NCBI RefSeq assembly: GCF_025024155.1
Contig: NW_026251775.1
Coordinates: 124,001 to 188,000 of the forward strand
DNA from: Gamsiella multidivaricata
Lineage: Eukaryota; Mortierellomycota; Mortierellomycetes; Mortierellales; Mortierellaceae
Length of the DNA: 64,000 nt
Direction: 5' to 3'
A program made the translations under genes and the position numbers. Numbering within the stretch: the first letter of the stretch is position 1; each line of letters starts with the position of its first letter. Of the stretch, positions 26,401 through 64,000 are shown in pieces. The notes below the pieces were generated by a model. It saw only the letters and a program-made list of their open reading frames with translations, did not search any database and was not told the origin of the DNA.

Positions 26401-28871
26401 AGAAGGGTGACAAGGACGAGCTTGAGCATGAACGGGTTCTTGACCAGTGCTGTCAGATTGGACAGGCACTTCATGTACGTATCTGTGCTCCAAATGGGTC
26501 GATCATCAAAGATATCTTTTGCTTCTCTGGTGTCCCTGAACTGACCGATGAAGTTCTCAATCTGGTCAGACTTGAAGGGGACAATGACCGCTTCCTCGAA
26601 AAGAGAAGAGGCCTCAGACGCGCTTTGGTTAGCTGCGGGTCGCGGCACAAAGTAGTTGCGGTACGTTGGAGTGAGGTACTGGGTCCTGCAAGTGACCACA
26701 ATCTGAAAGGACTTCCATCTCTCATCCTTGATTCGCGAGTGAAGGTGGACCCACTGACGGCACTCATCATACCCATCGCAGATGAGAATGACTCGTCGAT
26801 GCTCCTTGAGCTCTTGAATCTCGACATCGGTGAATCCATAGAGAGTGAGCGTTCGTTTCACAATGTTGCTTTCATCCAGTTTTCCCATTGCCTTGAGGTC
26901 GATGAACAGGGGGATCGCTCCACCAGGCTGGTATTTGTCCCAAAGTTTTCGTTCAAGTTGTCGGTTGTATGTTAACTTGCCGGCGCCTGAGTTCCCGAGG
27001 ATCAACATGATCTCTTTCTTGTCGTTCAAGAAGGACGTGACGCGATCTTCCAAGGGATCAAGCTTCTCTGCAGAGTCTTGTAGACTGACCTTGGACATCA
27101 ATGGGATGTAGATCCCAAAGCTACCCTCGCACGTCTCACTTTGAGCCTTAAGGAGCTTTGGTTCCAAATCCGCGGTCTTGTTGACTCTTTTCAAAAGTGC
27201 AGACACTATTGGCTGTGGCAGGCGCTGTCCCAACAAGTAGGGGAAAGGGAAAGCTTCCTCGCCACTCTTCTTGTCCAAGCTCTGGATGGTGGCTGAGGCT
27301 TGAGTCTTGATCGCCTCTTCGACAGCGACATCCAAAGACGGATTCAGGACGCGGGCCGTCGCGATGTGGTTGAGGATTGTGAGGATCCACTGTCTGACAT
27401 TGCCGAGAGATGTAGTGGCAAACAACTCACCAAGGAATTTGATTGCTTGTCCACGTGTGGTCACGTCCCAAGTTGGATCCACTGCAATATCACCAAGCAG
27501 CTGGCATATACCCCATTGGAACATGTACCCCTGGTGGCTGGGTGCTTCACGAACAAGGGTGTTGAGATCCGCAAGTTGACCGCGCCGGACTAGTTCCTGT
27601 GCTCCACGGAGGGAGATATACCAGAGACCCTTCTGTTTAGATCCGAATGCGTCTTTCAGACATTCCGCAAGCTCCTGGCCATTCTCGATCATGGCATTGA
27701 AGTCCTCAACCCCTGCCTTCACAATGTCAACAGTCTCCTCGACAGCGGCTTCGATGTCCTTCAGTCCTCGTCAAAGTTGAGTTGCATCACTCCCGAAACT
27801 TTGATGAGACCTGTGGCCATGCCAGCAAAAAGTCGAAGTGATCGCTGTAATTGAGATTCGTTGTTGGGTACCCACTGTAGGGCCTGAGACCCATAGATCG
27901 CCTGGTACGTATCTCAAGAAAGGATTTTCATGACTCCTGAGTCCAGAGAGAGCCTTGCCAAGAGGATCATGCTGGAGCACTCGATCTAGACCTTCGACAT
28001 TTTGGTCAGCCATGACACCGAGCACCTTGGAAACTGCGAGAGCCAAGTGGAAAGAAAAGTCTTCGGATTTGGAGGCTGTGCCTTGCAGGCGCTTAGAAAT
28101 TGCATCGGGAATGTTGATCAGATCGTCGGCCTCAATGTAGCCGGGAGGGGCGTCCTGGACAAGCTGAGTCAGACCTTGAAGCTTGTCGACGTCCAAAAGT
28201 GGGTCTGTCATAAGGTCGGCCACGAAGCTTGTCAGAAGAGATCGAAAATGACCTCTCTCTAGGACTGGCCCAACGAGGACAAGCTCGCGAATGGCTTCAA
28301 CATTCTTGATAGGATCGGACATGAACTCGCTGACGATCCCAATCAACAGCTGACAGACCCTGTCTCTTTCTACCGACTTGCTCTCGACTGACTTTAGCCA
28401 GTCCACATCCCCCTGACTGAGAGATGATTCAGTGGCATCTGATGATGGGCTTGAGAGCGAGGTTGACGAGGATGACAATGGAGATGCTGGCGTCTCTAGG
28501 GTACGGAGTAGATGGGCACAGTGAACCAATTGAGTGATGTCCTCGATGCGCTGACCGATCTTTGGAAGGTCCAAGTTCACTGTCCTCGTTGTGTTCTTGG
28601 GAAAGATATTGAGACTGAGCACTGACTGGGCGACAAGATCTGGATTCGAATTGCAAGGTGCCTGTGGGATTGATAGGTCATCTACTGTCGATTCCAGCGA
28701 CTTTGCTGGTAACGGCGAGTTGTCGTGCGAGTTGTTGTGCGAGTTGTTGTGCGAATGATGCAGTGCCTTCTCGATTTTGTCTTTCTTTCTATGGAACCAG
28801 GACGAGAGGCTTGACTTGCTGGATTTCATGCTCGAGTCACTGGTCAAGGTTGGCGATTGTGACGCGGTCAA
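23438..28871 (-). pseudogene. NACHT-WD40 (NLR-like) gene, degenerate
   Basis: Third member of the NLR-like family in this window, inactivated. From 28871 downward: a Ser-rich N-terminus; an ARM-like helical region matching the intact genes (LVLVGPVLERGHFRSLL, LTQLVQDAPPGYIEADDL); a NACHT domain (27722..25893) with P-loop GNSGAGKLT, where Leu replaces the usual Ser, and Walker B ILICDGYDE; a pentapeptide-like segment (GIKIPGADLSG); and about ten divergent WD40 repeats to 23726. The C-terminal tail resembles the tail of the intact gene (MLLQQRGAIDEK). Against the intact paralog the frame breaks near 27905 (4-base insertion), 27775, 25985, 25590 and 24600. In-frame stops lie at 25455-25457 (TGA), 24419-24421 (TAA), 24323-24325 (TAG) and 23723-23725 (TAG). 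These breaks are not explained by good splice sites. Confidence 0.85.
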
Positions 28872-30975
28872 GATAAAAGGGACGTCAGGATCTGGATCTG
28901 GATCAAGGTAAGTCAGGAATCACGAATCAAGATCAAGAGTAAGTTGACAAGACTTACGAGTCGTGGGGACTGGAGTGTTCAGGAGGCAGAGAGAGCAGGT
29001 AAGTGTGTTGAAGGATTGTTTATTGGTGTGGTTGGGACTAAGGAACTAATCTTGGAGGGGAACACACTCCAGCTTATATAGAAAAATAAAGATAAAAAGG
29101 ATGTGTCTAGACTCTTATCAAGTGATGAATGCTTGAGCTGACGCTCAAGTACCTGGTTGTTAATAAAGGGATCTAGATGTGTAGAGACAGGCCTCGGCCA
29201 TAGCAGTGCGCGTAGAAGACGCGTTGTTTAGGGATATGGAATCGTAGAAAACATAAAGGTTAATTCTAGCGAATGAGAAAGGTCGCAAACAGAGAGAGCA
29301 AATGTGGGCAAGGTTCGCCTTGTCCACAAAAGCAGTCACTTTTGTTAACAGCGATCGAGGTTCTCCAGATGAGATCGAGATTTGGGAGGCGTCCGAGTTC
29401 GTCATGGCTATTCTGTCGTTTGCGTTAAAGGCAGAAGTGAACTGTAGTTTGTTGAAGGAATTGCCATGGTCAATAAGTTAGTCACTTGTGGCTGCCAAGC
29501 GTTCATAGCCACGTTGCTTTTTCCTGCATCGAATTCGTCGGACGCGTTGTCGATGCTTTGTTTTACTTAAGGGGTGTTTATGTATATCGACGGGTGAAGT
29601 GGATCTGGATTGCGCTCGCGCGTCATTTGTTTTATTGTTGTGTCCACTCACAGGGTGATCCCTTGATCTGAGAGGACAGCTTAAAACGCGGGCAGGTCGG
29701 TTCTGCAACACCTGAAACAGTTGCTTGCTCCAAACAATTTCTTTATTTCATTGTGTCGTGAACTCGGACTAGGCAAGGCAAGGATGACCTTTCCCAATAC
29801 AGGACAAGGCCAGGGGAGGGGAAGAAGAAGTTCAAGGCAAAGGTTCAAGGTGTTTCCAAGGATGTATTCAAGTTACTAGGTAAAGAACTAACTGTGAAAG
29901 AGGAGTGTGTTTAAATAGCTAACAGGGGAATGAAGGAAGCTACAGACCTTCTGTTCCTAACTTTTCAGCGGAATTACTTGGGTGTTCCAAAAATTGTCGT
30001 TTTCAATTGGTATTTGGGCCTGCCTGAGCAGGCAATGGCTCGAAGCTATCATCCGTTGGATTATGGCTGAACGTCTCCAAGTCAGAATCCGTGCTAGAAC
30101 GCGACGATTACCGCCTTTTCCGATTTTTAGTTGAATACGGATAAGACTTTGGTCCCTGTATCATATCACGTGTGGTATGTGGTCTTGGAAGGCGGAAGAG
30201 ATAAATGCATTGCAGACGACTTTAATTGAACGAGGTATTGTAAGCAGACGAGTATCCTTGTTGATACGAGCTGCTGAGGTTAAGCATTCTTGTTGCACAG
30301 ATTTGTTCTTACGAACAACATCTCTCTTTTTGTTCTTTAGTCAGAACGCTTAAGGGGCACTAATATTAAGGAGGCTATCTTTCAGTTTCCCTAAATCTTT
30401 TTATCATTAGTAATAGAACCAATAATATCAGAATAAAAATCCTTCACACTATTTAAATGTACCTTTTTTACATCTCTCATTACATAACATTACACGATCA
30501 CAAAAAAGAGACAATTGTGAGAGTAAAGGGGAAAAGATGCAAAGCGGAGGGTGAGAGTGAAAAATCACACTTCACACCTGATCCCATCACTGTACTTATC
30601 CCATCAAAAATGTTGTTTTCCCTACCCGAAGAGCTTCCTTTTTTATTTTTTTTCAATCGCTCTTTACATCGACAATTTGTTTTTGTTGGAACCTCTCGAT
30701 GAGAGCTCATCACCACTCATAACAGCAATTTTTTTTCGTGAATTCAGTAATTTTTTTCACAACCTCAGCAATATTTTTTTTGTACAGCACTAACCCCTGT
30801 CGTCTTCCCCCACCATCTTCACTCACTGCGTGTACGACGTTGAAAAGTTATAGCAACCGAGCTTTCATAGCGACCGTTGTTTCTCTTGTTTCATACTGGA
30901 GTATTCTTCATCGCATTAGTGATACTTTGCTTGTAGAAATATTTATTTCAAGTTCTTCACTTTACCACCGCATTA
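28872..30975. other. AT-rich intergenic region in the accessory block
   Basis: About 2.1 kb upstream of the NLR pseudogene. Apart from the 80-bp dispersed repeat at 30009-30088 it holds AT-rich DNA and short open frames without domains. I see no supported gene. Confidence 0.4.
30009..30088 (+). repeat. 80-bp dispersed repeat, copy 1
   Basis: Matches 57940-58019 over 80 bp in the same orientation with about four mismatches and no indel. It contains a perfect 6-bp inverted repeat with a 4-nt loop (GCCTGC-CTGA-GCAGGC). The flanks are unrelated, so it looks like a dispersed element or remnant. It lies about 1.1 kb upstream of the NLR pseudogene start. Confidence 0.8.
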
Positions 30976-46866: not shown

Positions 46867-49552
46867 ATGTGGGGCAACGACGCTGACAGGAAGCATCGAC
46901 TCGAGGAGATCCTCCAGCGAGAGGACCACAGCGAGAGCGAGAGCGAGAACGACAATTCGAACAGCAACGGCGGCGACAAGCACCCAAAGTCCGAGAGCGA
47001 CAATGACGCCCACATGGACGATGAGGACCTGGCTGCTGCCCAGGCCACCGCCGAGGGCTTCTGTGTCGAATGCAAGGACCAGGAATCGTTCTATTCGTGC
47101 GAACAGTGTGCGGAGGACTTTTGTGAGGTCTGCTATGGTATGTTCCATTCCAGAGTTTGTTTCGAACAAACCATCCATCCATCTGCAGCAAACTGCAGCT
47201 CATCAAAAAAAAGAAGCTCGCCCTTGACACTGATCTCCTCATGTTGCTCCATCACTTTTCTCGACTGAAACCCCCTCAACCCCTCCCTCCCCCTCACCCA
47301 TAGCGATGCTCCACCGTACCGGAAACCGTGCTCGCCACCTCAAAAAGGAGATCTTCAAGCCCAATGGAAAACCACAGACGCTCGCCCCCGCCACCGCCAC
47401 CAACGGGATTTCAGCCTCGACCTCGACCTCGAAGGGCAGTTCCTTGAGTGACGAGACCTTGAAGGATCTTCCCGAGTCCAAGGTGATCGTCTCGAGCGGA
47501 TCCTCGACCTTTGGGGATTGGGTCATTGACCGATCAAAGTATATCCCCATGCGTTTGGATCTGACGGAGCGAAAGCTCTTGCGGCTGTGAGTTTTGTCGG
47601 TTGATCACGAAAGAAATGCTTGGACTATTTTTTCTATCTTGTTCTCCACTTCCCCCCCCCTTCTCTTGTGTAATTTCGCTAATGACGCCCTGTACGCTCT
47701 AACTTTATGGACTAAAATAGTCTTGAGGCTGCACTGAATGTGAGCGAGTATACGGACAAGGTCGATATTCTCTCCTACACCAGCAAATCCAAACGGATCA
47801 TCCATCAGATCAAGGATCTATGCGCCATCATTTCAGGACTTGTAGGTGTGTACCAACAGGATACTGCAACGGATTAACAGAGACGAGAAAAAAAAAGGAA
47901 AACCAGCAGGAGGAAAAACCAAATTCATTCACCAGTTTGTTCGCTCCTTTTGTGCCGATTTTAGTGGCCAACGACTACCGCCGTGGACAAGAGTTATTTG
48001 CGGAAAAGTCCTTTGAGGATAACGAGGAGTTCTTCCAGATCATTTTTGAGATTGGTCGTCGCCACAAAATCATGAACCCCGAAAAGATGAGAAGCGCCTA
48101 CGGAAAGCTCATGTACCTGCTGATGGACTCGACCATGGACGAAATCGAGTCGACATTGGGCTTCAGCTGTGTGATTCCGATCAAGACCGTATACTCTTTT
48201 CTGAAGAGCCGTGATGGATTGGAGATACTGAGGAACGATCTCGTTGCGGATGCCACAAAAGAAATTGTCGCCGACGGCAAATCCCGTCAACAAATCCAGC
48301 AGGAGATCCGGAGCAAGGAGCGGGCTATCGAAGCACTTAGTCGGAAATACGCCAACGAGAACCTGACGCCGGACGAGATCAAGGTCTGCCTGTACTCTAT
48401 CGGTGACAATCACAGCTTCTTGAGGACGAACCGGTAAGTACACGAGTTGCGGCGTCGACTTTTTTGTGAGGCGTCTTGTATCCCCTGGCTTTTGTAGTGG
48501 CTCCATTGAACTAATTTACATCGACATCTCCACGTGTAGTGATCCTTGCGACAAGATGCTCAAATATCTGACAACATACTTCCAGCCAACAACGGTCGAG
48601 GAAGGTTTCTCGCTCGCGATTCAGTCCGGCCGTCAAGGCGCTCGATTGACCCACAACCACGAGACACAGTACTGGTACATCAACCAAACCCTCAACCTCT
48701 GGCGCGAGATCGCCCATGAGATGTTCTATCTCTGGATGCTCTCTGACGACGACATGCTGAATAACGACTACCGACTCCGCGACACTGGTCAGGGGTTGCA
48801 GCGTCTCCAGCACTGCCCTGCGGTGTCGAAGGCGATGCATACGATTCTGCACAAGGCACAGCAGAAGGCAGGATACTGGGTGGGCAGCTCTGTGATCCAT
48901 CTGGGGGACAGTAACGTCCCGAATGCGTTCATGTTCATTGACAAGTACAACCAGGTGGCGAGGATATTGAACCCGATCATTCTGACACTGGAGAAGATTG
49001 ACAGTATCGCCAAGGACGAGGGTATTCATGCCTATATCCGCGACAGCTTTGGAGGGGTGACGAATTTGAAGAAGACGATTGTCTGCGACTTTTTCCGCAT
49101 GGCCTTTGATGGATCTGGTGCCGACAACTTTTTCTCTGCTGGTATGTTTTGAGGATGTGCTTTTTTTGCAGCGCCGAGTAGGGAGCATGGACGCAAGACC
49201 GAGTCTACATCGACGATCTGTGTACCTTTGTTTTAATTTTTTTTTGTTTCTTTCTTTCTTCTCGCGTGCTAGGATCCTGTATTGACGGAAGATTGACATC
49301 TGCCTGGAACTGGTGCTCACAGATCGAAAAGAAGCCCTTCTTCCCGATCTTTTTACTCACTGTAAGTGAAATCATTCTTTTGTTGGCAAGGACCTCGAAG
49401 GGAGGCAGGCAGCCAGTCTATTTGATGCATGAAAAAAAAAAGTCAGTTAACTAATGTTTGCTGTCTATTGCGATATTTCTTTCTTTCTTTTCATATGTAT
49501 ACATGTATATGTCTAGGGATTTACTGGATTCGATGGCGAGACGTGGTCGTAG
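46867..49552 (+). CDS. B-box zinc finger plus DUF2009 (UPF0652) protein
   Basis: Seven exons (46867..47137, 47304..47586, 47721..47845, 47965..48433, 48540..49141, 49273..49361, 49517..49552) sum to 624 aa with matching phases. The N-terminus is acidic/Ser-rich, then a B-box-like zinc site: FCVECKDQESFYSCEQC, followed by CEVCY and, after the intron, MLHRTGNRARH. The DUF2009 region covers the rest: NDYRRGQELFAEKSF, IFEIGRRHKIMNPEKMRS, YGKLMYLLMDS and DPCDKMLKYLTTYF. It ends with LGDSNVPNAFMFIDKYNQV, RLTSAWNWCSQIEKKPFF and GFTGFDG. Proteins of this kind are conserved in fungi and plants (S. pombe UPF0652 type); their role is not established. No defect was seen. Confidence 0.82.
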
Positions 49553-51425
49553 ACACTCATCCCCCTTACATTCAAGTACTTAAAACAGCTATTATAGAAA
49601 CGCCTCGATTGCTTTGGATATTTTGCAAAGAGATAAAATAAACCAAAGGTTAGAAGAACCCGATAAGGAGCGACAATTGGTCCCCCTATTTTTGCACTGC
49701 ATTTTCACCACAGCACTCATGCCCAAGGAAGCAAAAAGGGCTCTTGTGCGACATTCCCCCTCCTAAAAAGGACAGTGCGTCCAGGCACCTGCCAACTATC
49801 TCACTTGAAACATCTCGAATCTTTCTTTGCACGAGGACAACTTTGTAGACCCCCCGCAATTGCTAGCCTTCCATACCAGCCCCTCACCATCCTCCCCTAG
49901 AACCTCGATCCTCTTCGAACGGGGACCCCGCAAGTGCAACACACCAACACCAACATACACAGAAAAAAATAAACACAAAAGAAGCCCGAAGAGCAGCCCT
50001 GGTCCAAACCTGTCGCATCCATATCCCCGTCGTTTTCGGAAACCGGTTCCCGCCAAAGAAACCGCCACATGTGCCGATGGAAGAGTCCGCGGGACGAAGG
50101 ATCAGAGAGCCAGACGTAGCAACATTTACTGGACGACGGAAACCAGGGAGTCAAGTAGATAGTTCTGTAACGTATGTTTAGGGTGGAAGGATATTTATCA
50201 AAGGCACCCAAGTGTGTGGTATCTAATTCTGTGCACACACCCCCACTGCCTCCAGAACCAAAGGGACCCATTGTGGTCGTGCCAGTTTCGATCTCATTGG
50301 CATGAAGTGGAACGACTGTTGTTTTCTTTCATTCCTAAGCATCCGAGAGCCCATTATACGTTACACGAGGGCGAGGGAGCAATCTGACTGCAAGTTTGGC
50401 ACTCTTTCCCCCTCTTCTCACATTTTCCCACTTTCCTACCTTTCCCACTTTCCCACCTTTCCACTTTCCCACTTTCCCTTCTCCCCACATCCACCCTTCC
50501 TTAATCCACCCTTCCTTGATCCATCAGGAACTGTCTCGTATCTCTTTCATCTTTTCTCGCTCTTCTGTCTGTCTCAAGTGCGTCTCTGCTCCATCTCAAT
50601 AAGCACAGCCCAGCGGTGACTCATTGGTAACGAAGACACGATTTATCTGCCAAAGCCCCACCCCTGAATGTGCCTGAACAACCACAGTCGAGTCAAGGAG
50701 TGCTAATGCTAGAATGGCCGAGATCAGGAGAACAGCCTATTCATGTGCAATGGATAATAATCCCTTCTTTCATGCTCACAGGAATCTCTGCTAGAAGTGA
50801 CAGGGAAGCGAATATCCCTTCACTCGACCCGCCTTGTTCGTGTGCAGACCGTCTTCAATAAAGAATTGGGATAGAAAACGTTTCATAGGGGCGGACCATT
50901 TCCTCAGCTGGTGAAAGAAACTCGAGAAACAGATTCCTGTTGAGGTGAGGCAGTGTTTCTTGTCAGTCGATAGTAGCCTGCCTATAGGCATGTTTTAAGG
51001 TTATTTAATTCTTCATGTCTTCACAATTGGGCAGTTGGTATATATCGCTGCTAGGAAGGAGGCACGGAGAGGACAAATTATTCAGGACTACCTCTGCATC
51101 TAACCAAAGGAAACAAAGAGTCGAATAAACACTTCCGAGGTAGGGGGCGCCATCACTTGGCAGAGCAGCCACATATGATCTAGTTCATGCAGCTGCTATG
51201 TATATCAATGGTTATATTTACCATAGTTCATTCTGCTCCCACTGCGTCTGTAGTATACCAGCCCACTGCGACTTGTTGGTCCCCATTGTGTTACTGAAGT
51301 GCCTGTCAAGTACAAGTACGTATACTGGTACTCACACAAGTAGATTAATCGACTCACAAGGTCACTAATATCGTCGCCATCTGCTCTATGATAACAGGAG
51401 AACCCATGCCCCTCAGAGAAGCAAC
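49553..51425. other. Intergenic region and promoter of NLR copy 1
   Basis: From about 50339 the sequence is duplicated upstream of the second NLR gene (58092 onward); the left 0.8 kb is unique. It contains stacked CTTTCCCAC-type pyrimidine words at 50400-50500. No gene was recognised. Confidence 0.5.
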
Positions 51426-54400
51426 ATGTTTGACAGAGTTTTTTCATCGCCGCGAAAGGCTCTCTTGCCACAAAAGGAGTTGGAACTCGCCAACTTTCAC
51501 ATGGAGAATGCGCGTAAAACCAAGGATCGGGAACTTGCATTAGCGTTGTGCGACGATGCGGAGACTGCGTTATCCCGGATGAAAAGAGCTGCGAAAAAGA
51601 TTCTTACAACTCCCTTGTCCGTCGAGGATCAAGCCCTGCGCGATGGATTCGCTGGCGCCTGCCTCGAGCACGGCAACTTGTTGGATAGCTTAGGATATAG
51701 TGAAATGGCGCAGGCCAGCTACAAGAGAGCAGAAAAATGGGGGTAAGTGACAGAATACCTGCGCTCTGCTGGTTCGCATTAGCCCGGCTAGATCATACGT
51801 CGCATCTAATGCATCTCTCAATTTTGTTGACTGGCCCTCTGACTTCAACAGCCATGTGCGTCCTACAAAACATCCGGGTCCTGCAGTTTCATCTGTCACC
51901 GACAGCGCCCGCCGCGACATGGCACGGATCTCTAAGGATATCTTTCCCGATGACATGCGTCTGCCCACCGTCAAGATCGCGTTGCCAGAGGCAGATGAGC
52001 GACTCTGCGATACTTCCCAGCTCGCTTACTGCCTTGGTCTTCTGCAAGTGACGCCGTCGCCCGAAGAGGTCTTTGAGCCAGCAGCAGGAAATTGGGTGAA
52101 ATCCATAGAGAAGAATGCAGAGGAGAAGGAGAGGCTCAGGACGCTGGCGACAGATGTGATCCGGGCATTCACTCGTGATGAGCTCAGGGATGCCAATGCC
52201 GTCGCAGAAGTCGTGTGCCTGGCCCCAGTCCTTGAAAAGGAATATTTCCACTCTCTACTCATGCTGTTTGTCGATGGCGTTGACAAGTCCAGTCTGCTGG
52301 ATGTGCAGTCCCTCGAAGGACTGGCGCAGTTGGTCCAAAGTGCTCCCGAGGGCTACCTCGACTCGGATGACCTAGCCAGGATCCTGAACAGCCTCAACAC
52401 CCGCTTACAGGATACTCACACTCAGTCTTCAGATCACATCGGCCGTCTCACGCTCGCAGTGTCCAAAGTCCTGGATGCCATGGCCGATACCAAGGTCTCA
52501 GGCTTAAAGCGTGTAGAGCTGCACGAGCCACTCTCTGCCTATTTGAATGGACTACAAGGCAGCAGTGACCCTTACTTGGTGTACCAGGCTGCCTACGCCT
52601 TCCAAGCACTGCAGTGTGTCCCAGACAACGAATCACCATGGCAAGCAACAATGCGGCGCACTGGAATTGTGTTGAAGGGCGTCTCGGGACTAGTTAGTGC
52701 TGTAAAAGGTCTGGACGTCAACGGCTTCATCACAGGACTCAGTCATCTTCAGGAGGGACTGGGAGAGGTGATCCAGGTAGCGAAAATCGGTTACGAAGGC
52801 GTGAGCGCACTGGTCGAGAGTGGACAAGGACTGCTGGAATCTCTCAAAGTCGGTCTCAGCTTCAACCAGAAACGTGCCTGGTACACAGCTCTGCGCGGAG
52901 CAGACACACTGCTGCGGGACGGTCAACTTGCCAAGTTCAAGACCCTGGTCTGCGAAGCGCCTTGCCGGCGTGATCTAGCATTTCAACTAGGAGTATGCCA
53001 GCGCCTGGGGGACCTTGCGGCCAATCCACTGTGGGACATAGAGTCTCGCCAAGGTGCTGTTGCGTTTCTGGGCGAGATGTACCGAAATGATGCAGAGTGG
53101 GGTCAGCAAGCTCTCGTCAAGCAATGGATCCTTGACATCCTTATGCAGTTGGCTTCGACATTTGGCTCAGCTATGCCAGGTATGTATGATGAACATGAAC
53201 GGATACGTGAGAGGCTCTTGCCTTATTATGAGGTATGGAGTTCACCGCCTAGCAGGTACTAATAGCTATGCTATATTCTATTCTGGTCTATGCGATACAT
53301 GGTGTAGTCGTCGAATCTTTGTTGCAAGAGCTGGAATCGAATGGCGATGAGACGAAAAGGGTTCTTTATCAGGACTGCCGAGAGGAAAATCGAAGCCTAC
53401 ATCCGCTGCAGGTCGCCTTGCCAACTGTCGCGTCCCCGTCATTGCTTGATCTTGTCCAGAACAAGCCCGATGTAGAAGCCGACCTGAGACGACTGAGAAA
53501 GCAACGATTGAAGGAACGAGGCAAAGTCGTGTACATCCCTCCTCAAGCCAAGGCTAACCTGCAAGCGTCCGATGACAACTTGTTCGACTTGACAAAAGAA
53601 GTTGAAGCCTTCCTGAGCAGTGACCGTAAGGTGATGCTCCTGCTAGGCGATTCGGGTGGAGGCAAGTCGACCTTTAACCGGCAGCTCGAGTGCGACTTGT
53701 GGGATGCCTACAAGAAAAAGGAAGGCAGGATTCCGCTCTTTATCAGCTTGCCTGCAATCGACAAGCCAGAACAGGATCTGATTGCTAAACATCTACGGAA
53801 GGCAGAGTTTACCGAGCCCCAGATCCGAGAGCTGAAGGACTACCGCAGATTCATCTTGATTTGCGATGGATATGACGAGAGCCAGCAGACACACAACCTG
53901 TACACGAGCAACCGACTGAATCAGGAGGGAGGATGGAGGGCTCAGATGGTCGTTAGCTGCCGCAGCGAGTACCTTGGGCTTGATTATCGGGATCGGTTCC
54001 AGCCAGCAGATGGCAATCACCAAGCAGAACCAGCGTTTCAAGAGGCGGTCATTGCACCATTCTCCATGGATCAAATTCAAGAGTACATAAGGAAATATGT
54101 GTCCGCGACCAGACTGCTCTGGCAGGTGACGGACTACTTGAAGGCCCTGAATCTGATTCCCAGCCTGCAGGACCTGGTCAAGAACCCCTTTATGTTAACG
54201 CTGTCCTTGGAGGTACTGCCGCGCATGGTGGATCCAGGACAAGACCTCTCGGCCGTGCAGGTCACGCGAGTCGCGTTGTATGACCAGTTTGTGGAGCAAT
54301 GGTTGGAGCGAGGCAAGAAACGGCTCGTTGAGAAGAAGGACTTGAGCTACCAAGAGAAGAAGGTGTTTGAGAACTTGTCGGACGATGGTTTTGCACAGAA

Positions 54401-57344
54401 CGGAGTTGCCTTTCTGAAAGCGTTAGCGGTAGCGATGTACGAGAAGCAAGCGGGCAATCCGGTGGTCGAGTACTCGCCCTTTCGCGATCAAGGGACATGG
54501 AAAGAAGATTTCTTTAGCCGAGAGAACGAGAAGCAGCAGCTCTTGCGTGAGGCATGTCCTCTGACGCGCAGTGGCAATCAGTACCGGTTTATCCATAAAT
54601 CACTGTTGGAATACTGCTTGGCCCGTGCGGTATTTGAGCCGCGAGATGGAGAGAACGCGAGTCGCGCGGCCTCGCCTCAAGCCCTGCCACGTCGAGGGAG
54701 CGTCCATTCCGTCATGAGCTTCGAAGACCAGGCTACTGTAGAGGAACCCGTGGCATCCACTGCACAGGCCGTGCTCGATTCGCCCCTGGCACGAAGAAGC
54801 TTTGCGGGCGAGCCGTCGATTCTGCAATTCTTGGCAGAGCGTGTCCAACAGAAACCTCTCTTCAAGCAGCAACTGCTCGCCACGATCGAATGCTCCAAAA
54901 CCGACAAAGAGGCACGCAAGGCGGCAGCCAATGCGATCACGATATTGGTCAGAGCGGGGATGCCGTTTATGGGTGCAGATCTGAAAGGCATCCGGATTCC
55001 AGGAGCGGACCTGAGTGGGGGCCAATTCGATTCTGCTCAGCTACAAGGGGCAGATTTGAGAAAAGTCAAGCTTCGCAATATTTGGCTGCGTCAGGCCAAT
55101 TTGAACGACGCACAGATGTCGGGTGTGCAGTTTGGGGAATGGCCGTACCTCATAGAAGAAAGCAGTGTAAGTTCCTGCGCGTATTCGCCAGATGGGAAGT
55201 TCTGTGCGGTAGGCCTCAAGGACGGCACGATCAGCGTGTATGACACTTCGACTTGGACAAAAGCCCACACCTTGTACGGTCATACCGACTCAGTTTGGAG
55301 CGTGGTGTATTCGCCCAGTGGCCAGCAGATCGCCTCGGGAAGTCGGGACGAAATGGTGCGACTGTGGGATGCGCAAACCGGTGCACCCGGTCTGATCTTA
55401 AGCGGCCATACCAACTGGGTTATGAGCGTGGTGTATTCGCCCAGCGGCCACCAGATCGCCTCAGGCAGTAGCGACAGCACGGTGCGACTGTGGGATGCGC
55501 AAACCGGTACACCCGGTCCCATCTTAAGCGGCCATACCTCCGATGTTACGAGCGTGGTGTATTCACCCAGCGGCCAGCAGATCGCCTCGGGAAGTGACGA
55601 CAGCACGGTGCGACTGTGGGATGCGCAAACCGGTGCACCCGGTCCCATCTTAAACGGCCATACCAGAGAGGTTACGAGCGTGGTGTATTCACCCAGCGGC
55701 CAGCAGATCGCCTCAGGCAGTAACGACAGCACGGTGCGACTGTGGGATGCGCAAACCGGTGCACCCGGTCCCATCTTAAACGGCCATACCAGAGAGGTTA
55801 CGAGCGTGGTGTATTCGCCCAGCAGCCAGCAGATCGCCTCGGGAAGTTGGGACAACACGGTGCGACTGTGGGATGCGCAAACCGGTGCACCCGGTCCCAT
55901 CTTAATCGGCCATACCTTCGCTGTTATGAGCGTGGTGTATTCGCCCAGCGGCCACCAGATCGCCTCGGGAAGTGGCGACGAAACGGTGCGACTGTGGGAT
56001 GCGCAAACCGATGCACCCGGTCCCATCTTAAGCGGCCATACCAACGGTGTTACGAGCGTGGTGTATTCGCCCAGCGGCCAGCAGATCGCCTCGGGAAGTT
56101 GGGACAAGACGGTGCGACTGTGGGATGCGCAAACCGGTACACCCGGTCCAATCTTAAGCGGCCATACCGGAGAGGTTATGAGCGTGGTGTATCAGCCCAG
56201 CGGCCAGCAGATCGCCTCAGGCAGTAACGACAGCACGGTGCGACTGTGGGATGCGCAAACCGGTACACCCGGTCCCATCTTAAGCGGCCATACCTCCAAT
56301 GTTACGAGCGTGGTGTATTCGCCCAGCAGCCAGCAGATCGCCTCAGGCAGTAACGACAGCACGGTGCGACTGTGGGATGCGCAAACCGGTGCACCCGGTC
56401 CCATCTTAAACGGCCATACCAGAGAGGTTACGAGCGTGGTGTATTCACCCAGCGGCCAGCAGATCGCCTCAGGCAGTAACGACAGCACGGTGCAACTGTG
56501 GGATGCGCAAACCGGTGCACCAGGCCCCATCTTAAGCGGCCATACCTCCTATGTTGACAGCGTGGTGTATTCGCCCAGCGGCCAGCAGATCGCCTCGGGA
56601 AGTTGGGACGAGACGGTGCGACTGTGGGATGCGCAAACCGGTGCACCAGGCCCCATCTTAAGCGGCCATACCTCCTATGTTGACAGCGTGGTGTATTCGC
56701 CCAGCGGCCAGCAGATCGCCTCGGGAAGTATGGACTGCACGGTGCGACTGTGGGATGCGCAAACCGGTGCACCAGGCCCCATATTAAGCGGCCATACCAG
56801 AGAGGTTACGAGCGTGGTGTATTCGCCCAGCGGCCAGCAGATTGCCTCGTGCAGTCACGACAACACAGTGCGGCTATGGGATGTGAATTCGGGTCAATGT
56901 TTGGCAGTTGTTCAAGGTTTCCATGGGCCAATCAGAAGCATCACCTGGAGTGCTACTCTAAACGGCACCTATATCGCAACCGGCTGTGAGGATAAGTCTG
57001 TTCGCATGTGGCAGGTCATAGAAGAGGATGACCGCTATCAGGTGCGCCTGCATTGGAGTTCGATGCATGACAGACTTACCGTGTCAAATACCTTTATCCA
57101 AAACGTGCAAGGCTTAAGCAGGATAAACATGCGGCTATTAGAACAACGCGGCGCTGTGGGCGAGCCCATTCCGCCTTTGGGCTTCCGCGAGGCGAGCAAA
57201 AAGCTAATGACCATGGCGTCCGTAGCGTATAAACTCAAGGCGCCGTCAAACCACAGTATGATGGATACCGCTGCCACGGTCGATTCTCCCGCTGTGCAAT
57301 CAGCAAAGCCGGTCGACTCGGCGGATGTCTTTCCGCTTGCTTGA
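51426..57344 (+). CDS. NLR-like receptor: TPR/ARM-like helices + NACHT + pentapeptide + high-identity WD40 (copy 1)
   Basis: STAND-type receptor expected to oligomerise on ligand binding. Exons 51426..51742, 51852..53179 and 53308..57344 give 1893 aa. Apparent stops near 53260 lie in intron 2 (GTATGT, branch TACTAAT, GTGTAG). Domains: 1-106 helical with a TPR-like hairpin (HGNLLDSLGYSEMAQASYK); about 107-600 ARM/HEAT-like helices; NACHT with P-loop GDSGGGKST (about 662-670), Walker B FILICDGYDE (to about 739) and NPFMLTLSLE; a helical end FIHKSLLEYCL; pentapeptide-like repeats (GADLSGGQF, QGADLRKVKL, about 1102-1155); one degenerate WD40, 13 near-identical 42-aa repeats (about 1206-1751) and a final divergent blade. 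No HET, Goodbye or Patatin effector domain was seen. Likely roles, by analogy with HET-E, are allorecognition or defence. Confidence 0.88.
55278..56915 (+). repeat. WD40-coding array, 13 x 126 bp (NLR copy 1)
   Basis: Thirteen direct 126-bp units in frame, each encoding GHTxxVxSVVYSPSG, then IASGSxDxTVRLWDAQTG. Third-codon positions are largely identical between units, so the array is kept similar by unequal crossing-over or conversion. Differences concentrate at repeat residues 4, 5, 7, 23 and 25, counting the Gly of GHT as 1. Array length is expected to differ between isolates and to be collapse-prone in assembly. Confidence 0.95.
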
Positions 57345-59123
57345 AAGCTGAAGGTAATGCAGATTGGAAGTTAGCAATGGTATCTTGACTTTTTGTCATT
57401 GCCAGTCTTTTTGCGCATGGATTGTGCTTTCTAACGACAATATACAGAGTAGTCTTTGTCCATGACAAGTTCACAAATTAAGAGTGGTAGTCAAGAGCAC
57501 AAACTAAAGCACCCAATGGGTTTGAAAAACCAAAGAACAGGAGCGAAAGCGATAAACAATGAAGAGATCAAAGCTAGGGTGTGGGGTATTGTTCGCCCGT
57601 AAATGTTGACCACGGCACCTCGCTGTCTTAAGTAATACGCGCAGGAGAAACATAGGTCTTCCGATTTTAAGCAATTCCCTCGCGAAGAGTATCGTCTCAG
57701 CTTCCTTCACCGACCCTGGCCGATATCACCAGCACCACCGCTGCGACCAACGCCAGATCTACAGCCAATAACGCGCTCGCCATACTGAAGCAGAATTCAG
57801 TAAGCGTTGGATTGTGTACCCACTAAGGGAACGTGAGCTGGGTCTAGACCGTCGTGAGACAAGTTAGATTTATCCTATCGATAAAGTATTGCAATAGTAA
57901 ATGAACTTAGCACGAGAGAAACCGTTCATTCGGATAACTGGTATTTGGGCCTGCCTGAGCAGGCAATGGCCCGAAGCTATCATCCGTTGGATTATGGCTG
58001 AACGCTTCAAAGTCAGAATGATGCTGATTGTTGTTAGAGTTCGTTGGCTAATTGCACAATTCTCAGTGCTGTTGATTTCCTTCTCTCCTTTGCATCCGAG
58101 TCCATTACACGTTGCACGAGGGCGAGGGAGCAATCTGACTGCAAATTTGGCACTCTTTCCCCTCTTCTCACACTTTCCCGCTTTCCCACTTTTCTATTTT
58201 CCACTTCCCCTTCTTCCCACATCCACCCTTCCTCAATCCATCAGGAACTACCTCGTATCTCTCATCTTTTCTCGCTCTTCTGTCTGTCTCAAGTACGTCT
58301 CTGCTCTATCTCAATATGCACAGCCCAGAGGCGACTTATTGGTAGTAAAGGCACAGTTTATCTGCCAAAGCCTCATCCCTGAATGTGCCTGAAACAACCA
58401 CAGTCGAGTCAAGAAGTGCTAATGCTAGAATGGCCGAGATCAGGAGAACAGCCCGCTCATGTGCAATGGATAATAATCCCTTCTTTCATGCTCACAGGAA
58501 TCTCTGATAGAAGTGACGAGGGAAGCGAATATCCCTTCACTCGACCCGCCTTGTTCGTGTGCAGGCCGTCTTCAACAAAGAATTGGAGTAGAGAACATTT
58601 CATAAGGACGGACCATCTCCTCGGCTGGTGAGAAACAGATTCCTGTTGAGGTGAGGCAGTGTTTCTTGTCAGTCGATAGTGGCCTGCCTATAGGCATGTT
58701 TTAAGGTTATTAATCCTTCATGTCTTCACGATTGGGCAATTGGTAGATATTGCTGCTAGGAAGGAGGCACGGAGAGGACAAATTATTCAGGACTACCTCT
58801 GCATCTAACCAAAGGAAACAAAGAGTCGAATAAACACTTCCGAGGTAGGGGGCGCTATCACTTGGCAAAGCAGCCACATATGATCTAGTTCATGCAGCTG
58901 CTATGGATATCAATACCATAGCTCATTCTGCTCCCACAAGGTCTTTAGTATACCAGCCCACTGCGACTTATTGGTCCTCATTGCGTTATTGAAGTGTCTG
59001 TCAAGTACAAGTACGTATACTGGCTACTCACACAGGTAGATTAATCAACCCCACAGAGTCACTAATATTGCCCCCATCTGCTCTATGATAACAGGAGAAC
59101 CCCTCCCCCCTCAGAGAAGCAAC
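57345..59123. other. Spacer between the two NLR genes
   Basis: About 1.8 kb. The first 0.75 kb is specific to this spacer and carries the 80-bp dispersed repeat. From 58092 it repeats the 5' flank of NLR copy 1, with small indels. No additional gene was recognised. Confidence 0.5.
57940..58019 (+). repeat. 80-bp dispersed repeat, copy 2
   Basis: Second copy of the sequence at 30009-30088, with about four mismatches in 80 bp. It keeps the GCCTGC-CTGA-GCAGGC hairpin. It lies just outside the left edge of duplication unit 2, about 1.1 kb before the NLR copy 2 start codon. It has no counterpart upstream of NLR copy 1. Confidence 0.8.
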
Positions 59124-62100
59124 ATGTTTGACAGAGCTTTTTCGTCACCGCGAAAGGTTCTCTCGCCACAACAGGAGCTGGAACTCGTCAACATTTACGT
59201 AGAGAATGCGCGCAAAACCAAGGATCAGGAAATTGCTTTAGCGTTGTGCGACGACGCAGAGACCGCGTTATTCCGGATGAAAAGAGCTGCGAAAAAGATT
59301 CTTACAACTCCCTTGTCCGCTGAGGATCAAGCCCTGCGTGATGGATTCGCTGGCGCCTGTCTCGAGCACGCCAACTTGTTGGTGAGCTTAGGACATAGTG
59401 AAATGGCGCAGGTCAGCTACAAGAGAGCAGAAAAATGGGGGTAAGTGACAGGGTACCTGCTCTCTGCTTGTTCGCATTAGCTCGGCTATATCATACGTCG
59501 CATCTAACGCGTCTCTCAATATTGTTGACTGTCCTCTGACTTCAACAGCCATGTGCGTCCTACAAAAGATCCAAGTCCTACAGTTTCATCTGTCACCGAC
59601 AAGGCCCGCCGCGACATGGCACGGATCTCTAAGGATATCTTCCCCGATGATATGCGTCAGCCCACCGTCAAGTGCACGTTACCAGACACAGATGAGCGAC
59701 TCCGCGATACTTCCCAGCTCGCCTACTGCCTTGGCCTTCTGCAAGTGACGCCATCACCCGAAGAGGTTTTTGAACCAGGCGTAGGGAATTGGGTGAAATC
59801 CACAGAGAAGAATGCAGAGGAGAAGGAGAGACTCAGGACGCTGGCGACAGATGTGATCCGAGCATTCACTCGTGATGAGCTCAAGGATGCCAACGCCGTT
59901 GCAGAAGTCGTGTGCCTGGCCCCAGTTCTTGAAAAGGAATATTTCCACTCTCTACTCATGCTGTTTGTCGATGGCGTTGACAAGTCCAGTCTGCTGGATG
60001 TGCAGTCCCTCGAAGGGTTGGCGCAGTTGGTCCAAAGTGCTCCCGAGGGCTACCTCGACTCGGATGACCTAGCCAGGATCCTGAACAGCCTCAACACCCG
60101 CTTACAGGATACTCACACTCAGTCTTCAGATCACATCGGCCGTCTCACGCTCGCAGTGTCAAAGATCCTGGATGCCATGGCTGATACCAAGGTCTCAGGC
60201 TTAAAGCGTGTAGAGCTGCACGAGCCACTATCTGACTATTTGAGTGGACTGCAGGGCAGCAGCGACCCTTACTTGGTGTACCAGGCTGCCTATGCTTTCC
60301 AAGCACTGCAGTGCGTCCCAGACAACGAATCACCATGGCAAGCAACGATGCGGCGCACTGGGATTGTGTTGAAGGGTGTCTCAGGGCTTGTTAGTGCCGT
60401 AAAAGGCCTGGACGTCAACGGCTTCATCACAGGACTCGGGCATCTTCAGGAGGGACTGGGAGAGGTGATCCAGGTAGCGAAAATCGGTTACGAAGGTGTG
60501 AGCGCCCTGGTCGAGAGTGGACAAGGACTGCTGGAATCTCTCAAAGTCGGTCTCAGCTTCAACCAGAAACGTGCCTGGTATACAGCCCTGCGCGGAGCAG
60601 ACACACTGCTGCGGGACGGTCAACTTGCCAAGTTCAAGACCCTGGTCTGTGAAGCGCCTTGCCGGCGTGATCTAGCCTTCCAACTAGGAGTATGCCAGCG
60701 CCTGGGGGACCTTGCGGCCAATCCACTGTGGGACATAGAATCTCGCCAAGGTGCTGTTGCGTTTCTGGGCGAGATGTACCGAAACGATGCAGAGTGGGGT
60801 CAGCAAGCTCTCGTCAAGCAATGGATCCTTGACATCCTTATGCAGTTGGCTTCGACATTTGGCTCAGCTATGCCAGGTATGTATGATGAACATGGACGGA
60901 TGCGTGAGAGGCTCTCGCCTTAATATGAAATATGGAGTTCACGGCCTAGCAGGTACTGATAGCTGTACTATATTCCATTGTGGTCTATACGATACATGAT
61001 GTAGGTGTCGAATCTTTGTTGCAAGAGCTGGAATCGAATGGCGATGAGACGAAAAGGATTCTTTACCAGGTCTGCCGAAAGGAAAATCGAAGCTTACATC
61101 CGCTGCAAGTCGCCTTGCCAACTGTCGCGTCCCCATCATTGCTTGACCTTGTCCAGAACAAGCCCGATGTTGAAGTCGACCTGAGACGACTGAGAAAGCA
61201 ACGATTGAAGGAACGAGGCAAAGTCGTGTACATCCCTCCTCAAGCCAAGGCTAACCTGCAAGCGTCCGATGACAACTTGTTCGACTTGACAAAAGAAGTT
61301 GAAGGCTTCCTGAGCAGTGACCATAAGGTGATGCTCCTGCTAGGTGATTCGGGTGGAGGCAAGTCGACCTTTAACCGGCAGCTCGAGTGCGACTTGTGGG
61401 ATGCCTATAAGAAAAAGGAAGGCAGGATTCCGCTTTTTATCAGCTTACCCGCCATCGACAAGCCAGAACAGGATCTGATCGCCAAACATCTACGGAAGGC
61501 AGAGTTTACCGAACCCCAGATCCGAGAGCTGAAGGACTACCGCAGATTCATCTTGATTTGTGATGGATATGACGAGAGCCAGCAAACACACAACCTGTAC
61601 ACGAGCAACCGACTGAATCAGGAGGGAGGATGGAGGGCTCAGATGGTCATTAGCTGCCGCAGCGAGTACCTTGGGCTTGATTATCGAGATCGGTTCCAGC
61701 CAGCAGATCGCAATCACCAAGCAGAGCAAGCGTTTCAAGAGGCGGTCATTGCGCCATTCTCCATGGATCAAATTCAAGAATACATCAGGAAATATGTGTC
61801 CGCGACGAGGCCGCTCTGGCAAGTGACGGATTACTTAAATACCCTTGATCGGATTCCTAGCCTGCAGGACCTGGTCAAGAACCCCTTTATGTTGACGCTG
61901 TCCTTGGAGGTACTACCGCGCATGGTGGATCCAGGACAAGACCTCTCGGCCGTGCAGGTCACGCGAGTCGCGTTGTATGACCAGTTTGTGGAGCAATGGT
62001 TGGAGCGAGGCAAGAAACGGCTTGTTGAGAAGAAGGACTTGAGCTACCAAGAGAAGAAGGTGTTTGAGAACTTGTCGGACGATGGTTTTGCACAGAACGG

Positions 62101-64000
62101 AGTTGCCTTTCTGAAAGCGTTAGCGGTGGCGATGTACGAGAAGCAAGCGGGCAATCCGGTGGTCGAGTACTCGCCCTTTCGCGATCAAGGGACATGGAAA
62201 GAAGATTTCTTTAGCCGAGAGAACGAGAAGCAGCAGCTCTTGCGTGAGGCATGTCCTCTGACGCGCAGTGGCAATCAGTACCGGTTTATCCATAAATCAC
62301 TGTTGGAATACTGCTTGGCCCGTGCGGTATTTGAGCCGCGAGATGGAGAGAACGCGAGTCGCGCGGCCTCACCTCAAGCCCTGCCACGTCGAGGGAGCGT
62401 CCATTCAGTCATGAGCTTCGAAGACCAGGCTACTGTAGAGGAACCCGTGGCATCCACTGCACAGGCCGTGCTCGATTCGCCCCTGGCACGAAGAAGCTTT
62501 GCGGGCGAGCCGTCGATTCTGCAATTCTTGGCAGAGCGTGTCCAACAGGAACATCTCTTCAAGCAGCAGCTGCTTGCAACGATCGAATACTCCAAAATCA
62601 ACAAAGAGGCACGCAAGGCGGCAGCCAATGCGATCACGATATTGGTCAGAGCCGGGATGCCGTTTATCGGTGCAGATCTGAAAGGCATCCAGATTCCAGG
62701 AGCGGACCTGAGTGGGGGCCAATTCGATTCTGCTCAGCTACAAGGGGCGGATTTGAGAAAAGTCAATCTTCGCAATATTTGGCTGCGTCAGGCCAATTTG
62801 AGCGACGCACAGATGTCGGGAGTGCAGTTTTGGGAATGGCCGTACCTCTTAGAAGAAAGCAGTGTAAGTTCCTGCACGTATTCGCCAGATGGGAAGTTCT
62901 GTGCGGTAGGCCTCGGCGACGGCACGATCAGCGTGTATGACGCTTTGACTTGGACAAAAGCCCACACCTTGCGTGGTCATACCGACTCAGTTAGGAGCGT
63001 GGTGTATTCGCCCAGCGGCCACCAGATCGCCTCAGGCAGTGAAGACAAGACGGTGCGACTGTGGAATGCGCAAACCGGTGCACCCGGCCCCATCTTAAGC
63101 GGCCATACCTCCTATGTTACGAGCGTGGTGTATTCGCCTAGTGGCCAGCAGATCGCCTCGGGAAGTCGGGACGAGACGGTGCGACTGTGGGATGCGCAAA
63201 TCGGGGCATCCGGTCCCATCTTAAGCGGCCATACCTCCTATGTTTGGAGCGTGGTGTATTCGCCCAGTGGCCACCAGATCGCCTCGGGCAGTGGCGACAA
63301 CACGGTTCGACTGTGGGATGCGCAAACCGGTGCACCCGGTCCCATCTTAAGCGGCCATACCTCCACTGTTATGAGCTTGGTGTATTCGCCCAGCGGTCAG
63401 CAGGTCGCCTCGGGAAGTGTGGACAGCACGGTGCGACTGTGGGATGCGCAAACCGGTGCATTAAGTTCCATCTTAAGCGGCCATACCAACTGGGTTACGA
63501 TCGTGGTGTATTCACCCAATGGCCAGCAGATCGCCTCGGGAAGTTGGGACAACACGGTGCGACTATGGGATGCGCAAACCGGTGCACCCGGCCCCATCTT
63601 AAGCGGCCATACCAACTGGGTTACGATCGTGGTGTATTCGCCCAGTGGCCAGCAGATCGCCTCAGGCAGTAACGACAGCACGGTGCGACTGTGGAATGCG
63701 CAAACCGGTGCACCCGGTCCCATCTTAAGCGGCCATACCAACTGGGTTACGAGTGTGGTGTATTCGCCCAATGGCCAGCAGATCGCCTCAGGAAGTGCGG
63801 ATTGCACGGTGCGACTGTGGGATGCGCAAACCAGTGCACCCAGTCCCATCTTAAGCGGCCATACCAACTGGGTTACGAGTGTGGTGTATTCGCCCAATGG
63901 CCAGCAGATCGCCTCAGGAAGTGCGGATTGCACGGTGCGACTGTGGAATGCGCAAATCGGTGCACTCGATTCCGTCTTAAGCGGCCATACCTCCGATGTT
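59124..64000 (+). CDS. NLR-like receptor, NACHT + WD40 (copy 2, 3' end outside window)
   Basis: Paralog of the gene at 51426, same intron positions: exons 59124..59440, 59549..60876 and 61005 to beyond 64000. The frame is open throughout. A TAA at 60922 that ends the unspliced frame lies inside intron 2, which supports the splice model. P-loop GDSGGGKST (near 61345) and Walker B ILICDGYDE (near 61555) are intact, so the ATPase should be functional. The pentapeptide-like segment follows near 62670, then eight complete 126-bp WD40 units and the start of a ninth. Residues at the variable repeat positions differ from copy 1, with NWV/NDS and ADC combinations recurring, so ligand specificity probably differs. 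The C-terminus is not seen. Confidence 0.87.
62975..64000 (+). repeat. WD40-coding array, 8+ x 126 bp (NLR copy 2, truncated)
   Basis: Units start at 62975, 63101 and every 126 bp to 63983, where the window ends in the ninth. The first blade (GHTDSV) corresponds to the first blade of copy 1. Later units differ in order and in variable residues, so the arrays have been reshuffled since the gene duplication. Confidence 0.95.

Follow-up and report, generated by a model that had tools for sequence, protein, structure and literature searches.

The 64,000-nucleotide stretch of Gamsiella multidivaricata DNA analysed here (positions 124,001 to 188,000 of contig NW_026251775.1; hereafter the window, whose numbering we use) carries towards its right-hand end two complete genes in tandem for NACHT-WD40 proteins of the NOD-like receptor (NLR) type. 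The species belongs to the Mortierellomycota. Both genes have open frames from ATG to stop and three exons each with GT-AG introns, which bears out the claim, made in an earlier sequence-only reading of this DNA, of two adjacent intact full-frame genes. Gene 1 spans 51426-57344 and encodes 1893 amino acids; gene 2 spans 59124-65167 and encodes 1935 amino acids, its last 1.2 kb lying beyond the window end (64000) and being taken from the assembly. The exon structure is consistent with P0165, a protein carrying the name G. multidivaricata, whose match to locus L022 of the genome, at 100%, falls into two pieces, one of 106 and one of 444 residues. The proteins are composed, in this order, of an ARM_5 domain, a NACHT domain, pentapeptide repeats, a divergent WD40 repeat, 13 or 14 near-identical 42-residue WD40 units, a second divergent WD40 repeat and a tail. 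The individual features are as follows.

50316..58068, plus strand: tandem duplication unit 1 (promoter region, gene 1, spacer), by BLAST (homology starts at 50316 and 58069)
51426..51742, plus strand: gene 1 exon 1 (ATG, GT donor; exon structure as in P0165)
51743..51851, plus strand: gene 1 intron 1, 109 bp (GT-AG; 90.7% conserved in gene 2)
51852..53179, plus strand: gene 1 exon 2 (open frame, splice sites)
52102..53148, plus strand: gene 1 ARM_5 domain (PF23948; Pfam E 9.3e-74; dN/dS 0.054 against gene 2)
53180..53307, plus strand: gene 1 intron 2, 128 bp (GT-AG; 89.1% conserved in gene 2)
53308..57344, plus strand: gene 1 exon 3 with stop (open frame)
53631..54107, plus strand: gene 1 NACHT ATPase domain (Pfam E 6.2e-10; intact Walker A motif, GDSGGGKS)
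54966..55079, plus strand: gene 1 pentapeptide repeats (Pfam PF00805, E 2.7e-11)
55164..55277, plus strand: gene 1 divergent N-terminal WD40 repeat (translation)
55278..56915, plus strand: gene 1 array of 13 near-identical 42-residue WD40 units (mean 81% amino-acid identity)
56916..57032 (end approximate), plus strand: gene 1 divergent C-terminal WD40 repeat (translation)
58069..64000, plus strand: tandem duplication unit 2, continuing outside the window to about 65895 (BLAST)
59124..59440, plus strand: gene 2 exon 1 (open frame, splice sites)
59441..59548, plus strand: gene 2 intron 1, 108 bp (splice sites)
59549..60876, plus strand: gene 2 exon 2 (ARM_5 match G000:C145:183793-184848, window 59793-60848)
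60877..61004, plus strand: gene 2 intron 2, 128 bp (splice sites)
61005..64000, plus strand: gene 2 exon 3, first part, ending at 65167 outside the window (open frame, assembly)
61328..61804, plus strand: gene 2 NACHT domain (match G000:C145:185328-185804)
62975..64000, plus strand: first eight WD40 units of gene 2 and the beginning of the ninth, of 14 near-identical units in all (mean 76% amino-acid identity)

The products thus combine an N-terminal domain, a NACHT domain and C-terminal repeats in one intact protein, the make-up of a fungal NLR (a STAND protein of the NACHT-repeat type). Their combination of NACHT, pentapeptide repeats and WD40 in a Mortierellomycota species is that of the NACHT-pentapeptide-WD40 NLRs of this phylum. 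The proposal of a NACHT-WD40 type NLR in an early-diverging fungus is upheld. No HET domain was found: in Pfam, exon 2 together with the NACHT part matched only the ARM_5, NACHT and pentapeptide families, a whole-protein scan returned none among the best 25 of 58 families, and exon 1 alone yielded no HET and only a TPR_8 match below its cut-off. Because ARM_5 lies at the N side and no HET domain was found, the domain content assigns the tandem pair to the NACHT-WD40 type of NLR and not to the HNWD proteins. The PADLOC models for bacterial anti-phage NLR-like proteins matched neither the ARM_5 exon nor the NACHT-pentapeptide part (0 families, E up to 0.01). A sequence search for solved relatives of ARM_5 gave nothing convincing (best E 0.04). 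The best solved relative is PDB entry 2YMU (E 3.7e-126), which like the Gamsiella arrays is made of near-identical WD40 units and differs in being a 577-residue chain in which WD40 units alone are matched, from residue 12 to 576.

The tandem repeat unit measures 7753 bp and begins about 1.1 kb upstream of each ATG; BLAST against the downstream DNA aligned 6577 columns at 91.5% identity. The promoter, introns and ATPase domain had been described as almost identical in the two genes. This is too strong for the DNA, because identity is 92.8% in the promoter region, 90.7% in intron 1, 89.1% in intron 2 and 91.1% in the 3' flank. The linker-NACHT-pentapeptide core (609 residues) is 96.2% identical as protein. 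Ratios of non-synonymous to synonymous divergence (dN/dS) between the genes were 0.37 for the N-terminus, 0.054 for ARM_5, 0.29 for the linker, 0.08 for NACHT, 0.18 after NACHT, 0.85 for the pentapeptide part (8 changes only), 0.23 for the tail and 0.69 for colinear WD40 units. Purifying selection on ARM_5 and NACHT is strong (0.05-0.08), and the comparison of arrays with NACHT that the sequence-only reading had suggested sets 0.69 against 0.08. Synonymous divergence (dS) ranges from 0.05 to 0.25 across the domains compared, with a minimum after NACHT that may reflect local gene conversion. The pair had further been attributed to a recent tandem duplication; tandem duplication it is, and recent only in a relative sense, with dS up to 0.25, compared with matches of 99-100% between this genome and five of the six listed proteins named G. 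multidivaricata. If those proteins come from another isolate, the duplication would predate the split of the two.

These values also bear on the question of whether copy 2 is an assembly duplication. Such an artefact is suggested for a third copy, at the contig end, which alternates between the sequence of copy 2 and that of the gene on contig C115, mostly at 97-100% identity and with indels. We nevertheless consider an artefactual copy 2 extremely improbable, because dS amounts to 0.05-0.25 in every domain compared; the introns differ by about 10% and the copy 2 frame is intact. The third copy starts at about 65895, outside the window, and is cut off by the end of the contig at 72693 (G000:C145:189895-196693); its frames are broken. 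It matches copy 2 mostly at 98-100% over the first 1.5 kb (one step of 200 bases at 93.5%), then locus L009 on contig C115 at 97-100% for 1.8 kb, copy 2 again at 99-100% for about 0.5 kb, and finally L009 over 2.5 kb, at 100% apart from three indel columns. An assembly chimera is the probable explanation; alternatively, a recent conversion may really have taken place. We rejected the third copy as evidence of a triplication, given the mosaic of copy 2 and L009 with indels, the contig end and the broken frames.

The WD40 arrays were rebuilt after the duplication. For only three of the 13 copy-1 units, namely units 1 (tied), 5 and 13 (the last), does the nearest copy-2 unit lie at the corresponding place, in line with the earlier claim that the arrays differ in order and residues. 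It is mainly at their ends that the arrays can still be compared (the final unit of copy 1 is closest to the final one of copy 2, with 23 differences compared with 35 or more), and inner units are mostly nearest to copy-2 units at other places. Blocks have been copied within each array: copy 2 has identical stretches of 220 bases at a distance of ten units, copy 1 identical stretches of 141 bases at a distance of six. From the places of the family in this genome, 20 stretches besides this contig were fetched, and later one more; of 222 WD40 units detected in the fetched loci, the 186 with at least 62% identity to the consensus were kept for the codon tests (one of the 14 copy-2 units was dropped). 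With the variable codons excluded, the nearest unit of these 186 lay in the same gene only in 35 cases, in another gene in 119 and in both in 32, counts that include copy 3, so that the second class is enlarged by the units in which copy 3 and L009 are identical.

Variation within the units is concentrated at few sites. In genes 1 and 2 pooled, residue entropy was highest at positions 23, 5, 4, 25 and 7 (1.9 bits or more; the next position reached 1.23), and these five positions occur in 23 combinations among the 25 distinct units. Between them, V6 and D24 are invariant as residues: position 6 is unchanged and position 24 has silent changes only. For the Podospora WD40 unit, Paoletti et al. 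(2007, PMC1805685) report positive selection on codons 7 and 9, situated in the d-a loop, and on codons 25 and 27, situated in the b-c turn, with purifying selection on codons 8 and 26; the positively selected codons all belong to the top face. With an offset of two, which is our own alignment of the two variability patterns, these four codons equal positions 5, 7, 23 and 25 here, around V6 and D24. Of the seven positions numbered 10, 11, 12, 14, 30, 32 and 39 in PMC12222747, five fit when shifted by seven; the remaining two, positions 3 and 32 here, are nearly invariant in genes 1 and 2. On the alignment with an offset of two, four of the five variable positions coincide with the positively selected codons of Podospora HET-D and HET-E, with the same conserved residues between them. 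Such a position-by-position match appears to be new; among the matches listed in a search of open-licence papers, by titles and abstract openings, we found no site-wise selection analysis of Mortierellomycota WD40 arrays.

Selection at single positions was assessed with a codon fit of our own, of the fixed effects likelihood type (fixed kappa, FastTree topology), for three sets: 175 units (the fetched loci minus copy 3), 73 units from seven related loci, and genes 1 and 2 alone (26 of their 27 units, 25 distinct). The non-synonymous rate beta exceeded the synonymous rate alpha at positions 4, 5, 7, 23 and 25 in all three fits. For the 175 units the excess was significant at positions 4 (p = 0.0033), 5 (7.6e-5), 23 (7.2e-4) and 25 (0.016), and beta fell below alpha at 24 of the 42 positions. 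Genes 1 and 2 gave p under 0.05 at positions 4, 5 and 23, and also at 36; single-step codon pairs in these two genes yielded dN/dS of 4.07 at the five positions and 0.28 elsewhere.

Several results weigh against diversifying selection at all five sites. Position 7 was non-significant in all three fits; with 73 units only positions 5, 23 and 36 were significant, positions 4, 7 and 25 missing the threshold (p = 0.09-0.12); and in the large set only 5 and 23 pass a Bonferroni correction for 42 tests. In a counting test, whose tandem-array table includes copy 3, p for the five positions lay at 0.013-0.34 in the large set, and correction left none of them significant. With all loci taken together, single-step dN/dS was just 1.05 at the five positions (0.18 elsewhere), the single-step non-synonymous rate there equals 0.73 (two genes) or 0.35 (all loci) of the synonymous rate elsewhere, and the single-gene ratio was below 1 in five of 12 loci tested and undefined in two. 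The fits, moreover, take no account of recombination among units. In less repetitive family proteins, too, the five positions rank high in variability, four of them falling in the top five for 41 of 119 proteins and all five for 7 of 119; part of the variability pattern is thus generic, since these relatives tend to vary at the same positions. The arrays might accordingly be homogenised by recombination and the five positions merely unconstrained, a reading that the relatives, the weak single-site tests and the ratio of 1.05 favour. We regard it as unlikely, as beta is significantly above alpha at four of the five positions in the larger set, and in genes 1 and 2 position 6 shows no change and position 24 silent changes only. 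Collectively, the statistics for selection are good at positions 5 and 23, weaker at 4 and 25 and absent at 7.

The tandem pair is part of a large family in this genome, in which profile searches gave at least 42 NACHT matches and 53 ARM_5 matches, several genes being matched in pieces. Sixteen of the 42 NACHT matches have a same-strand neighbour within 10 kb (a single reading frame on C90 contains two of them), so that tandem copies are usual in this genome. Among the matches listed, five of six proteins named G. multidivaricata match the genome at 99-100% (P0012, P0165, P0166, P0218 and P0233). P0012, the counterpart of locus L006, agrees with it at 770 of 778 positions, with one substitution in the body and the rest at the splice joint, and ends inside its fourth WD40 repeat. 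The sixth, P0164, has a best genome match of 90%, which hints at a gene absent from this genome; being a 387-residue fragment on a 1.8-kb contig, it may also be a short-read chimera.

Further family members differ in build. A divergent one lies in the window at 24591-28919 on the minus strand, with ARM_5 spread over two open frames, divergent-looking WD40 repeats, and a borderline NACHT match (23.7 bits against a cut-off of 26.7-26.8) whose Walker A motif, GNSGAGKL, has no S/T after K. Locus L017 (G000:C90:166652-176651) is a single open frame of 1883 residues with two NACHT modules from different clades; several proteins of relatives, such as P0121, P0123, P0122 and P0003, also have two. Loci L008, L015 and L024 (contig C137) and genes on C110 and C132 apparently do without the second intron, because their uninterrupted frames of 1865-2011 residues span ARM_5 and NACHT. 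Upstream of the tandem array, at window positions 47727-49152 on the plus strand, lies a gene for a DUF2009 protein (non-canonical E2 ubiquitin-conjugating enzyme).

Beyond this genome, the search of sister genomes that had been suggested found the family in many Mortierellaceae. The closest relative among the matches listed is a Mortierella sp. AD094 protein, 85% identical over the core. That NLRs of this type are best known from Ascomycota and Basidiomycota, as the sequence-only reading had put it, needs correction: such receptors have already been reported from Mortierellomycota (PMC11291939, PMC9815663, PMC12258605), among them 26 N-NACHT NLRs in Entomortierella parvispora (PMC12258605). 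A helical N-terminus, NLR_Helical, is shared among receptors (PMC9815663), and the NACHT-PPR-WD40 receptors of Mortierellomycota are held to derive from Mycoavidus (PMC11291939); we take ARM_5 to correspond to NLR_Helical, and PPR to stand for pentapeptide repeats. Because NACHT-pentapeptide-WD40 receptors of Mortierellomycota are already published, the tandem pair belongs to a known receptor family, to which our analysis adds the match of variable positions with HET-D and HET-E and the rebuilt arrays.

Full-length homologues occur in bacterial endosymbionts: Mycoavidus cysteinexigens (72% identical in the core, 1969 residues), Mycoavidus sp. HKI (69%, 1911 residues) and Glomeribacter sp. 1016415 (1871 residues). 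In the 37 units of these three named proteins, positions 5, 23, 7 and 25 lead the entropy ranking. Among the proteins that group with the endosymbiont sequences, such as P0136 (Glomeribacter) and the unnamed P0112 and P0133, the WD40 units of one protein are as much as 80% alike, and the positions that vary are again the same. A scan of the genome contig collection for the genes of bacterial homologues found no relative. Two trees were built, the first from 119 of 202 rows (rows without organism name were dropped, except 13) and the second from 73 rows. In both, the three named endosymbiont proteins and 13 (first tree) or 12 (second tree) unnamed proteins, which we assume to be bacterial, form one group inside the Mortierellomycota family. 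In approximately unbiased (AU) tests, two constrained topologies were not rejected: one with all fungal proteins as a clade, against a distant outgroup of bacteria and archaea (p = 0.908; the constrained tree even scored better than the unconstrained one), and one with the fungal rows as a clade against bacteria plus the divergent fungal group (p = 0.256). Transfer between fungus and bacterium in either direction would be compatible with these tests. One might suppose that fungus and endosymbiont share a receptor family with the same hypervariable surface, that the symbiont versions are host-derived (contrary to the direction of transfer that has been published) and serve as decoys or as the symbiont's own rival receptors, and that the propellers diversify against each other or a common target; we hold this to be quite improbable.

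In NLRs in general, a repeat sensor grips a ligand, frees the NACHT switch and activates the N-terminal end. On balance, the genes probably encode intracellular recognition receptors that work as other STAND proteins do, with WD40 as sensor, NACHT as switch and ARM_5 as effector. The 15 and 16 WD40 repeats would be enough for two propellers, and the sensor would bind a foreign or modified protein through its hypervariable top face; in HET-E, two seven-blade propellers form a clamp (PMC12222747). Ligand binding would free the NACHT switch for nucleotide exchange and oligomerisation, which in turn would activate the N-terminal helical ARM_5 domain as the signalling or killing end. Two propellers, binding at the top face, a nucleotide switch and an effector role of ARM_5 are thus all proposed by analogy. 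Candidate ligands would be a protein of a fungal partner, a symbiont or a parasite.

As to which of these is recognised, a role in allorecognition is suggested by analogy, and recognition of parasites or endosymbionts would fit equally well. A role of the receptors in policing vegetative fusion between strains, like that of HET-D and HET-E, draws on the variation at the codons selected in those proteins and on P0164, whose 90% match, compared with 99-100% for the other five named proteins, hints at differences in repertoire. We judge it rather unlikely, in view of the failure to find a HET domain and of the possibly chimeric origin of the P0164 fragment. It is a tentative possibility that the receptors sense bacteria, above all Burkholderia-related endosymbionts, or mycoviruses: the Mycoavidus and Glomeribacter endosymbionts carry full-length homologues with the same leading variable positions, although a homologue in a symbiont says nothing on what the fungal copy binds. 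If recognition receptors they are, recognition diversity of the Podospora type, with interchangeable WD40 units, a conserved frame and the same top-face codons, would also exist in Mortierellomycota, far from the Dikarya, and would offer a second system for asking what such propellers bind. The close endosymbiont homologues make a receptor role in the fungus-bacterium symbiosis directly testable.

Three known systems invite comparison. The NLR-like proteins of Mycoavidus and Glomeribacter (P0015, P0024, P0136) resemble the Gamsiella pair in length, domain order, 12-13 scored WD40 units and the variable positions that come first in their pooled ranking; they differ in being encoded by bacterial genomes and in grouping with unnamed proteins apart from the fungal rows. 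With the published NACHT-PPR-WD40 (PMC11291939) and NLR_Helical (PMC9815663) receptors of Mortierellomycota, the pair shares phylum, domain order, helical N-terminus and Mycoavidus homologues, although the published identity to Mycoavidus is about 45-50%, compared with 72% in the core here.

The likeness to the HNWD proteins of Podospora anserina, to which the sequence-only reading had compared the locus, stands for the internally repetitive propellers and for variation at HNWD positions; it does not extend to the N side, where ARM_5 is present and no HET was found. Further differences are the pentapeptide repeats between NACHT and WD40, the 13 and 14 near-identical units in Gamsiella compared with usually 11 in HNWD proteins, and the additional variability of position 4. 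Control of heterokaryon incompatibility is a feature of the Podospora proteins, the Gamsiella genes being known here from their sequence. The WD40 units of HNWD proteins are more than 80% alike (PMC12222747), compared with means of 81% in copy 1 and 76% in copy 2. Like HET-E, HET-D and HET-R, the Gamsiella proteins carry, behind the NACHT domain, near-identical WD40 units of 42 residues that are exchanged within one gene as well as between genes and are numerous enough for two propellers, and in both systems pairs of variable positions flank a conserved residue, 7/9 and 25/27 in Podospora (PMC1805685) and 5/7 and 23/25 in Gamsiella.

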